In this document: positions 18,290 to 55,769 of the stretch, piece after piece
How positions within the stretch are numbered: position 1 is the first letter of the stretch
Layout: every line of letters begins with the position of its first letter
Origin: Arcobacter sp. FWKO B
GTDB taxonomy: Bacteria; Campylobacterota; Campylobacteria; Campylobacterales; Arcobacteraceae
NCBI RefSeq assembly: GCF_014844135.1
Contig: NZ_CP041403.1
Location: forward strand, 620,001-684,000
Direction: 5' to 3'
DNA length: 64,000 bases
The notes under the pieces: model-generated
Databases searched by the model: none
What the model saw: only the letters and a program-made list of their open reading frames with translations
Told to the model about the DNA's origin: nothing
Program-made: the position numbers and the translations under genes

Positions 18290-18310
18290 GAAAATCCTTT
18301 TTTAAATATC

Positions 18311-18336
18311 TAAAATCTAATATCTAAAATCTAAAA
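18311..18336 (-). repeat. Left 26-bp inverted repeat (TCTAAAA heptamer type)
   Basis: Units TCTAATA, TCTAAAA, TCTAAAA read on the plus strand. The 26 bases are identical, in reverse orientation, to 18707-18732. It sits 22 bases before the ychF start codon. Confidence 0.88.
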
Positions 18337-18340
18337 AGTT

Positions 18341-18649
18341 TTATTTACTTTTTAAAGTCTTGATACTACTAACTAATAACTTAATTAACTCACTAATTTC
18401 AGGTTCAATACTATTAAACTCTTTATTTGTAATCTCATTACTATCTTTTAATAAACTTAACCAATATAAAGTTTCATTTGCTTCTTTTAATGCTATACTA
18501 AATTTACTTATATAATCTGCATTAGATTGTGCAAATTCTGCCTCTTTGATTAAAGCACCAATAGCCGTACCACTTCTTAATAATTGTTTACTAATAACAA
18601 ATTCTTTTTTCTTATTTAGCAAATATTTATTCAACTTTATAATTCTCAA
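18341..18649 (-). CDS. Four helix bundle protein (S23/IVP-like), N-terminus degraded
   Basis: A 102-residue helical protein of the four-helix-bundle family first known from 23S rRNA intervening sequences; Avd of diversity-generating retroelements has the same fold. The hallmark is KEFVISKQLLRSGTAIGALIKEAEFA (seen here at 15-40). The only usable start is the TTG at 18649, which lacks the family's first 10-15 residues. Those residues (KTPLQVKSYSFA) are encoded in frame upstream to about 18691, but the codons there are ATA rather than ATG. The gene may start on ATA or TTG, or have lost its start. It is enclosed by a perfect 26-bp inverted repeat. Confidence 0.75.
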   Translation of the reverse strand: MRIIKLNKYLLNKKKEFVISKQLLRSGTAIGALIKEAEFAQSNADYISKFSIALKEANETLYWLSLLKDSNEITNKEFNSIEPEISELIKLLVSSIKTLKSK

Positions 18650-18706
18650 CGCAAAAGAATAACTCTTAACCTGAAGTGGCGTTTTATTTATTATATCTTA
18701 AATACC

Positions 18707-18732
18707 TTTTAGATTTTAGATATTAGATTTTA
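18707..18732 (+). repeat. Right 26-bp inverted repeat (TCTAAAA heptamer type)
   Basis: Perfect inverted copy of 18311-18336. It ends seven bases from the pepA stop codon. The two arms enclose 370 bases containing only the four-helix-bundle gene. Confidence 0.88.
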
Positions 18733-18738
18733 CTTAGA

Positions 18739-33319: not shown

Positions 33320-33396
33320 TTGATAGCTGATGGTTAATGGTTAATGGTTAATGGTTAATGGTTAATAGTTAATAGTTAATGGTTGATGGTTAATGG
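33320..33396. repeat. Tandem heptamer array (TTAATGG), 11 units
   Basis: Eleven consecutive 7-base units fill 33320-33396: TTGATAG, CTGATGG, four TTAATGG, two TTAATAG, TTAATGG, TTGATGG, TTAATGG. It lies between the 80-residue gene and the 3' end of the rRNA operon. Confidence 0.9.
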
Positions 33397-33472
33397 TAAT
33401 TTTAGTGTATTAGTAAGGAAGTATGTAAGAATTGATGTATAAATTTGATAATTAGGTAAAAAAAAGGCAATA

Positions 33473-33683: not shown

Positions 33684-33712
33684 TCTAAAACTTTTTAGAT
33701 TTTAGATTTTAG
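33684..33712 (+). repeat. Solo copy of the TCTAAAA/TTTTAGA repeat
   Basis: TTTTAGA units (33693-33712) close to a short facing TCTAAAA (33684-33690) in the 23S-5S spacer. Same unit as the repeats around the four-helix-bundle gene, but without a long second arm. Confidence 0.65.
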
Positions 33713-33759
33713 TTATTACTTGTTTTGTTGTACTTAATAAGATAGTAGCAAAGAATACT
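33713..33759. other. 23S processing stem, 3' arm
   Basis: Positions 33736-33759 pair with 36686-36710 (one bulge), and 33713-33724 with 36725-36736, joining the two flanks of 23S. A stem like this is the usual RNase III processing site of pre-23S rRNA. Confidence 0.75.
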
Positions 33760-36964: not shown

Positions 36965-37052
36965 GTAATATCTAATATCTAAAATCTAAAAGGTAGGATA
37001 AAGAATCGCTTTGCGATACATTACTTTTTAGATTTTAGATTTTACTTTTTAC
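36965..37052. repeat. MITE-like hairpin of the TCTAAAA repeat between two tRNAs
   Basis: Arms 36965-36995 and 37022-37052 match at 26 of 31 positions in inverted orientation. The left arm is nearly the same as the right repeat of the four-helix-bundle gene. Between the arms is a small palindrome, ATCGC-TTT-GCGAT. The whole unit lies between tRNA-Ala and tRNA-Ile inside the rRNA operon and encodes nothing. Confidence 0.8.
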
Positions 37053-37061
37053 TTAAATAAA

Positions 37062-54091: not shown

Positions 54092-54986
54092 TATTTAACC
54101 TTTTTCCTCTAATATAGTCAACCACATTCATACTTTGTTTTGATTGAGGCTGAACAAATTTGATTTTTAGTTTACCTTTAATACATCCGACGATTATATA
54201 ATCTTTAGCTACTTCTAAGATCTCACCTTTATTATTTGATGAATCAGTATCAACAAGTTGAATATCTTTCAATTTTAATCCACTTGGCAAATAAATTTCA
54301 GGCCAACTTTTATATGCTTTATATTTTGATAACAAACTTCTAGCATTTTCAAATTCTACTTCACCATCTGTTTTTTTTATCTTTTTGCAGTAACTTACAT
54401 CAACTAAATTTTGTTTTTTATTTTGTAATCTTGAAAAGTTATCCAAAACACTTATTGTAAGATTTGCCGCACTTTGTGATAAGTCTTCAAATAATTTCAT
54501 CACATCATATGAGTCATCTATTTTAATATATTGATATCCCAAAATATCACCGCTATCAAGTCCAATATCCATAAGCATAGCTGTAACACCTGTATAAGCA
54601 TCACTATTTAATAAAGCCTCTTGTATAGGAGATGCCCCCCTATATAAAGGTAATAATGAGGCATGAAGATTTATACAAGGTGCAATATCTAATATCTCTT
54701 TTGGTAGTATTTGCCCATAAGCTGCTACAACTATGAAATCAGGTTTTAAAGCTTTAATAATCTCTATATTTTCAATATCTCTTAGTTTAGTTGGCTGGTA
54801 AATAGGAAATTGCAGATTATTTTCTATCGCATAGTTTTTGATATGTGGTGGAGTTAGTATTTGTTTCCGACCAACAGGTTTGTCTGGCTGAGTAAAAAGT
54901 GCTACCACATCAAAATTATTTTTGATGATTGTATCTAAAATAATAGTAGCATAATCTGGTGTCCCCATAAAAACAATTCTCTTCAC
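54072..54986 (-). CDS. fmt: Methionyl-tRNA formyltransferase
   Basis: Formylates initiator Met-tRNA, 304 residues. Family blocks are FMGTPDYATIIL, the SLLPLYRGASPIQEALLN active-site region with preceding INLHA, and MDIGLDSGDIL. The C-terminal binding domain follows from about 200. Upstream by 24 bases is proB, the gap being a TTTTAGA repeat. Confidence 0.96.
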   Translation of the reverse strand: MKRIVFMGTPDYATIILDTIIKNNFDVVALFTQPDKPVGRKQILTPPHIKNYAIENNLQFPIYQPTKLRDIENIEIIKALKPDFIVVAAYGQILPKEILDIAPCINLHASLLPLYRGASPIQEALLNSDAYTGVTAMLMDIGLDSGDILGYQYIKIDDSYDVMKLFEDLSQSAANLTISVLDNFSRLQNKKQNLVDVSYCKKIKKTDGEVEFENARSLLSKYKAYKSWPEIYLPSGLKLKDIQLVDTDSSNNKGEILEVAKDYIIVGCIKGKLKIKFVQPQSKQSMNVVDYIRGKRLNIGDYLS

Positions 54987-54988
54987 TT

Positions 54989-55014
54989 TTTACCTTTTAG
55001 ATTTTAGATTTTAC
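54989..55014 (+). repeat. TTTTAGA heptamer repeat between proB and fmt
   Basis: A single copy of the same repeat as at 18707, reading TACC-TTTTAGA-TTTTAGA-TTTTACC. It fills the proB-fmt gap and runs into the proB stop codon. Confidence 0.75.
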
Positions 55015-55769
55015 CTAACAAAGAGTGTTCCCCTGTTGTGGACACCATCTATTAAATACTCTTTTGCATAAGTTAAATCAAATCCACTTGTTAAAAACAT
55101 TTGTTTATCTTTTTGTAATAAAAAATTTGCAGCTTTTAATTTTGTTACTATTCCGCCAGTTGCAAACTCATTATTAGGTGAATGTATCATACTTAATTCA
55201 TCTTCTGCAATTGAAGTAACAATTTTTTGTAGTTTTGCATTAGAATTCGTATGTGGATTATCATCATAATAACCATCGATATCTGTTAAAATTACAAGCA
55301 TATCCGCTTCAAAATAATAAGTAACATGTGCAGCCAATTGGTCATTATCACCAAAAACTAGTTCATCTGTTGCTGTTACATCATTTTCATTAATAATAGG
55401 CAATACCTTATGAGTAAGTAAAGTTTCAATTGCATTTTTTGCATGAATAGTTCTTTTTCTAGAATCAAAGTCATCGGCAGTTAAAAGCAACTGCGAACAT
55501 ATTACATCACACTCATTAAACCTTTTTTGGTACTCTTTCATAAGCATTGGTTGTCCAATAGATGCTAGGGCTTGTTTATTTGATACAACTTTTTTATCAA
55601 GTTTAAGTGCAGTATAACCTGCAGCTACTGCACCTGAAGTAACAAGTACCACTTCATAATAACTTTTAAGCTTTGCAATAAAATCAACTAAATTTTGTAA
55701 TCTATCAAGTGCAAGCTTTCCATCTTGTGTTAAAACCGCACTACCTACTTTTAGTACAATTCTTTTCAT
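55011..55769 (-). CDS. proB: Glutamate 5-kinase, short form
   Basis: First enzyme of proline synthesis, 252 residues. The amino-acid kinase fold shows VLKVGSAVLTQ, LVTSGAVAAGYTALKL, NENDVTATDELVFGDNDQLAA and GTGGIVTKLKAA-type block (here FATGGIVTKLKAA). The C-terminal PUA domain of longer ProB proteins is absent, as in many Campylobacterota. Its end overlaps a dispersed repeat. Confidence 0.95.
   Translation of the reverse strand: MKRIVLKVGSAVLTQDGKLALDRLQNLVDFIAKLKSYYEVVLVTSGAVAAGYTALKLDKKVVSNKQALASIGQPMLMKEYQKRFNECDVICSQLLLTADDFDSRKRTIHAKNAIETLLTHKVLPIINENDVTATDELVFGDNDQLAAHVTYYFEADMLVILTDIDGYYDDNPHTNSNAKLQKIVTSIAEDELSMIHSPNNEFATGGIVTKLKAANFLLQKDKQMFLTSGFDLTYAKEYLIDGVHNRGTLFVR

Follow-up and report, generated by a model that had tools for sequence, protein, structure and literature searches.

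The unit between pepA and ychF in this genome of Arcobacter sp. FWKO B is best explained as a compact mobile element composed of a protein gene and its repeats, in which a pentamer of the S23/IVP four-helix-bundle protein would bind one heptamer per subunit; we consider this explanation likely. That S23 and the heptamer arrays form one system, and that the unit is mobile, is in our judgement highly probable. To our knowledge, the S23/IVP proteins, whose structures were solved some twenty years ago, still lack a function, and we know of no mechanism for the intergenic heptamer arrays that have repeatedly been reported from bacteria.

Within the window, that is, the whole 64-kb stretch of DNA analysed, the unit comprises about 430 bp in the order array, S23 gene, inverted array. 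As claimed in the earlier note, the stretch 18311-18336 recurs without mismatch, in inverted orientation, at 18707-18732 (26/26; identity is 94% when 32 nt are compared), and the sole ORF enclosed by this 26-bp inverted repeat is an S23/TIGR02436 four-helix-bundle gene, which matches both TIGR02436 and PF05635. The gaps of 7 bases to the pepA stop and 22 bases to the ychF start given in that note have to be corrected to 6 and 21, respectively. Each arm is an array of five sites at 7-nt spacing rather than a unique 26-mer. With the S23 gene on the minus strand, the 3′ arm occupies 18309-18342 (plus strand; five sites 7 nt apart, TCTAAAA TCTAATA TCTAAAA TCTAAAA AGTT), and the 5′ arm occupies 18701-18735 (minus strand; five sites, AGTAAAA TCTAATA TCTAAAA TCTAAAA GGTA), directly upstream of the S23 reading frame. 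Folded as RNA, the unit forms a terminal stem of about 27 bp (z -5.0). S23 is its only encoded product, and neither a transposase nor a reverse transcriptase is present in it.

The S23 coding sequence lies at 18344-18688 on the minus strand, with family homology reaching to about 18688, and the TTG ORF covers 18341-18649 including the stop. This ORF matches TIGR02436 with an E value of 6e-26 (90.7 bits, cut-off 24) and PF05635 with an E value of 5e-22 (78.6 bits, cut-off 33.8). The homologous frame continues about 13 codons upstream of the TTG, and at the family N-terminus this copy has no ATG, GTG or TTG: ATA stands in place of ATG, and the first TTG follows 13 codons in. AlphaFold models the longer frame with high confidence as a four-helix bundle (pLDDT 96.6). 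The model has its best PDB match in the S23 structure 2rld (TM 0.91), and it also matches 2gsc (Xanthomonas XCC0516), Avd (4dwl) and Avd within the ribonucleoprotein entries of diversity-generating retroelements (DGRs; 8ube, 8ub7). No catalytic homology was found for S23. The core of the arms, N[G/C]TA, is unlike the ARTK core of the copy's own S23 subfamily; since the gene also lacks a normal start codon, the copy between pepA and ychF may be decayed, possibly at its start, or diverged. The start-codon defect bears on this single copy and leaves the assignment to the S23 family unaffected. The 2.24-Mb single-contig genome holds one S23 gene, and a search of a phage collection with one S23 query returned no relative.

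The repeats of the unit are dispersed through the genome. When up to three mismatches are allowed, the 26-mer has six copies in the window (18311, 18707, 33693, 36966, 37026 and 54988), with an expectation of 0 from 100 shuffles. The further copies that the earlier note placed at four sites in the window are thus present, but they make up three loci: two arrays stand alone, and the copies at 36966 and 37026 form an inverted pair. The pair is a gene-less, REPIN-like copy between the tRNA-Ala and tRNA-Ile genes of an rRNA operon. Its first arm (36965-36998, plus strand; GGTAATA TCTAATA TCTAAAA TCTAAAA GGTA) is followed by the central hairpin ATCGCTTTGCGAT (37005-37017, no strand) and by the second, inverted arm (37021-37054, minus strand; AGTAAAA AGTAAAA TCTAAAA TCTAAAA AGTA), so that the gene-less form reads array, small hairpin, inverted array. 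All three rRNA operons of this genome contain such a pair, and the tRNA-Ala/tRNA-Ile spacer of relatives measures 36 bp (G004), 38 bp (G007) and 2 bp (G012). One single array, of the same heptamer family as the unit, lies between the 23S and 5S rRNA genes (33690-33722, minus strand). The other (54985-55016, minus strand) lies at the junction of two ORFs, a 252-aa ORF ending at 55011 and a 304-aa ORF starting at 54986, which by eye we take to be proB-like and fmt-like, respectively; the array fills this junction, overlapping the upstream stop codon and abutting the GTG start of the downstream ORF.

Genome-wide, the 14-mer TTTTAGATTTTAGA has 47 matches, compared with 0-5 in each of 119 relatives; a control with this pattern read backwards was dropped, as it is a rotation of the same heptamer. 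We count 33 array loci, 11 of which are inverted pairs with a short spacer (S23 unit not included), and five sites are found in 31 of 44 arrays. A second heptamer family accounts for two of the 33 loci, both with three sites. In the window, a second heptamer family also occurs as ATGGTTA x 9.7 (33330-33397; register AATGGTT, ARTK type) adjoining the 5S rRNA gene, and similar arrays are located near two other rRNA operons (L025, L248).

The same architecture is conserved at S23 genes of many phyla. In one scan of 80 S23 loci from about ten phyla, drawn with SKQ-type motifs, an inverted repeat with a score of at least 12 joins both flanks at 72 loci, whereas among 878 control ORFs taken from these loci it does so for 38 (p 2e-70), and among lags of 3 to 24 only 7, 14 and 21 are enriched (p 3e-28). 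The arrays abut the S23 ORF (median 7 bp before the start and 2 bp after the stop), and 63 of 74 units are in sense with both neighbours, as against 313 of 631 controls. In other Campylobacterota, S23 genes mostly lie between inverted heptamer arrays of different sequences, and most of the six cyanobacterial plasmid genes that were read have clear inverted arrays, for example of AGTAGGG, AACAGGG or GTGTAGG. Two of these cyanobacterial plasmid genes (L314 and L315; Picosynechococcus and Anabaena) are located within CRISPR operons, one with cas10/cmr2 and cmr3 as neighbours and the other with cas6 and cas4; they are flanked by heptamer-like repeats, and such insertions could give S23 a cas-associated look. 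Within 20-kb loci, k-mers of a gene's own arrays are enriched 12-fold on average over other loci, with any copy present in only 28 of 79, and whole-genome counts were therefore used instead. At four orthologous units in relatives (L048, L049, L050, L052), nearly every heptamer of either arm differs at one and the same base (AATGAAA versus AATGAAT or AATGAAC), a pattern from which both arms appear to undergo concerted evolution.

Five is the prevailing number of sites. In SKQ arms (105 loci, a few of them fetched twice), we counted how many cores A[A/G]T[G/T] follow one another every 7 nt, and the longest chain comprises five cores in 89 of 210 arms (36 upstream, 53 downstream), four in 44 (22 and 22) and six in 16 (7 and 9), whereas shuffled flanks never give chains longer than three. 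Repeat runs measured independently of the core peak at 29-35 nt in both S23 subfamilies, and among arrays away from S23 genes 43 of 92 have five sites. The solved S23 structures 2rld and 2gsc contain five chains each, the chains of the Avd entry 4dwl run up to E, and a Xanthomonas S23 protein is described as a homopentamer in work that PMC4990558 cites. The most frequent site count and the five-chain structures make one site per subunit the natural reading, and a pentamer on five sites, with one heptamer site for each subunit of the ring, is a prospect that we rate somewhat above even.

The core follows the type of the protein, ARTK going with SKQ-type and NAG with IAEG-type S23. SKQ loci have ARTK in 89 cases and AG in 2, IAEG loci ARTK in 0 and AG in 27 (p 1e-24), with 25 of the 52 IAEG loci showing no clear core. 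In genomes that hold both types, SKQ genes have 26 ARTK and 0 AG cores and IAEG genes 0 and 16. This split within single genomes indicates that the core is set by protein type and not by genome composition. In the SKQ type, proteins have to be more than about 60% identical before their similarity is reflected in the three variable heptamer bases, and among less closely related proteins this specificity is weak.

At this one junction, the unit is found in some genomes and lacking in others. The congener G002 (YchF identity 96%) has an intact pepA-ychF junction that is a clean empty site, and a further congener (G003) also has the junction without the unit. The unit is hence not fixed in relatives, which bears out the proposal in the earlier note of an inserted element with terminal repeats and no transposase. 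The empty site of G002, TCTAATTTAGATATT, resembles one heptamer pair, and for a target-site duplication it provides the only clean comparison of a filled with an empty site of a unit. G002 also has several arrays of the heptamer family found here, yet no S23 gene was detected in this draft, which is 86% complete. Duplication of whole units was observed in a relative, the Ignavibacteria genome G133, rather than in the genome studied here: four pairs of S23 units are duplicated there, gene plus arms, and the three pairs that were aligned are 90% (L183/L186), 84% (L189/L190) and 82% (L181/L182) identical over the whole unit. The similarity extends approximately as far as the arms, with unrelated sequence on either side; in one pair it continues for some 25-40 bp further upstream. 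At four intergenic positions (L237, L246, L009, L240), this genome and G002 carry different heptamer families; at L237, the clearest case, the element begins at the identical nucleotide as in G002, straight after the T-run of a terminator. Such differing families at orthologous sites show that arrays either are replaced in situ or insert more than once at a single spot.

The number of arrays depends on the number of S23 genes. In a sample of 197 Bacteroidia genomes (153 with S23, 44 without), the median number of array matches is 1.5 with no S23 copy, 11 with one or two, 35.5 with three to five, 54.5 with six to nine and 102 with ten or more, a dose relation that is partly built in, as about four matches per S23 gene come from its own arms. 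Of the S23-positive genomes, 67 of 153 exceed four matches per gene plus 20, while more than 20 matches occur in 4 of the 44 S23-negative ones. Array number correlates with S23 at rho 0.66, and at a partial rho of 0.49 after size and RAYT number are taken into account; the genomes are related, so p-values overstate their independence. The reversed control for the ARTK pattern probably catches NAG-type arrays and is therefore conservative. The repeat is accordingly far from equally common in genomes without S23. The comparison with RAYTs and their REP sequences, with which the earlier note had illustrated its proposal of one system of protein and repeats, holds for the organisation and, because S23 lacks catalytic homology, not for the chemistry; the partnership itself extends to other phyla with other heptamers.

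A transposase could be thought to move the repeats, either the RAYT (Y1 transposase) of this genome or another one, with S23 as passenger cargo. There is indeed one Y1_Tnp gene here (C1:1660708-1660983; L269), and the gene-less array pairs resemble REPINs. However, this RAYT is bordered by its own, different palindromic REPs of the classical kind (GGAACCCCAGAT.. and ..CACCAGATAAATCTGGCGTTCC) and by no heptamer arrays, and across the 197 genomes the arrays track S23 more closely than Y1_Tnp (partial rho 0.49 versus 0.19). With Y1 as the transposase family compared, the 23 S23-positive genomes without Y1 have a median of 18 array matches, and genomes with Y1 and no S23 a median of 5. A passenger gene also fails to explain why the core is specific to the S23 subfamily, and we regard such a role for S23 as very unlikely. 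One heptamer array of this genome (L005) adjoins such a classical REP at the position that the second arm occupies in G002. Somewhat more credible, but still unlikely, is that the arrays are regulatory sites in 5′ and 3′ UTRs, bound by S23 on its own mRNA and others and spread by slippage and recombination without true transposition. The close fit of the arrays to the S23 ORF, the co-directionality of the units with their operons and the translational role proposed for TAACTGA arrays (PMC4679880) agree with this explanation, whereas the duplication of whole units, gene included, between unrelated flanks in one genome, the presence or absence of the unit at one site and the occurrence of gene-less copies as inverted pairs with a hairpin do not.

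The fold also invites the idea that S23 units are retroelements akin to DGRs, in which S23, like Avd, would partner a reverse transcriptase provided in trans, and the sense orientation within operons would suit it. The hint at Avd in the earlier note stands as a relation of fold, the S23 model matching Avd (4dwl, 8ube, 8ub7) with TM scores of 0.69-0.78; as regards a retroelement, a search of the complete genome for PF00078 (RVT_1) gave no match. With no reverse transcriptase in this genome, a retro route that depends on one is not open here today, and we give this explanation only a very small chance. The least probable of the alternatives is that the arrays are simple-sequence DNA selected for its structure, as G-quadruplex or cruciform, into which S23 merely inserts. 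G-quadruplexes have been proposed for the GGGAATC arrays of Xanthomonas (PMC4692102), and the likeness of the empty site to one heptamer pair would fit an insertion into such DNA. Against it, most heptamers here are A/T-rich and free of G-runs, the arms accompany the gene in duplicates and are missing at the empty site, and even within a single genome the core goes with the S23 subfamily.

A mobile element of protein and repeats shares features with several known systems. In the 23S rRNA intervening sequences (IVS) of Coxiella and Leptospira, an S23 ORF lies within complementary ends, which form a 28-bp stem in Coxiella; these sequences have been called selfish, with their movement unexplained (PMC4990558). 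The unit is likewise an S23 ORF bounded by complementary ends (26/26). Unlike the IVS, which sits in an rRNA helix, it lies between the protein genes pepA and ychF, its ends are lineage-private five-site heptamer arrays, and gene-less copies are scattered genome-wide. With REPIN/RAYT systems it has in common that the gene is present in one copy, that the repeat on its flanks is scattered as inverted pairs and that repeat number tracks the gene. The unit differs in having no Y1/HUH transposase beside the repeats, in encoding the small helical ring protein S23 and in its heptamer arrays, which take the place of REP palindromes; the genome in addition has a true RAYT, accompanied by REPs of its own. 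S23 shares the four-helix-bundle fold with Avd of DGRs (4dwl, 8ube, 8ub7), but the unit has no reverse transcriptase, template repeat or variable repeat. Heptamer arrays have been reported from Beggiatoaceae, Cyanobacteria and Bacteroidetes (PMC4679880). They are also described in Nostoc and in Xanthomonas; X. campestris has 186 arrays, most of which contain four units, and 70 pairs are convergent (PMC4692102). An array of five sites would be expected to appear as four full units followed by a terminal core. Like the short tandem heptamer repeats (STRR) of cyanobacteria, the TAACTGA arrays and the GGGAATC arrays of Xanthomonas, the arrays described here are intergenic, and the published cyanobacterial and Xanthomonas repeats look like S23-associated arrays. 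We found no mention of S23 in PMC4679880 or PMC4692102, nor any literature linking S23 to heptamer arrays or to the architecture of the element, in a search that covered subscription journals thinly.

Based on these observations, we propose the following hypothetical mechanism for the element, in which (i) the S23 product forms a five-fold ring; (ii) one ring would bind one arm, with one site per subunit; (iii) two rings would hold together both ends of the element, or of its transcript; (iv) S23 would also act in trans on the scattered gene-less copies; and (v) host enzymes would move the element. We infer the last step from the fact that the element encodes neither a transposase nor a reverse transcriptase. 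TRAP is an eleven-subunit RNA-binding ring that reads regularly spaced triplets, one site per subunit. The principle proposed here, a ring protein with one regularly spaced site per subunit, resembles it by analogy only: the S23 fold is unrelated, the subunits number five rather than eleven, the spacing is that of heptamers, and binding by S23 is putative. From the marked preference of units for the sense orientation within operons, we suggest that S23 owes its expression to read-through. This orientation between co-directional genes, together with arms that abut the ORF, is compatible with an RNA-bound state, and we lean towards RNA over single-stranded DNA as the form that S23 would bind.

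Whether these units constitute a new class of element across bacterial phyla, one without recombinase or reverse transcriptase, whose pentameric ring would read a five-fold heptamer code at its ends and mobilise gene-less derivatives in trans, is to us an evenly balanced question. If so, the heptamer arrays known from cyanobacteria, Xanthomonas, Beggiatoaceae, Bacteroidota and other groups would be explained by this class; an element of this kind may lie behind the puzzling heptamer repeats of many bacteria. The architecture, the core specificity and the shared number five tie the puzzle of S23 function to that of the heptamer arrays, and both become testable. If the model is right, bacteria carry a type of mobile element that spreads by means of a non-enzymatic ring protein and the enzymes of its host.
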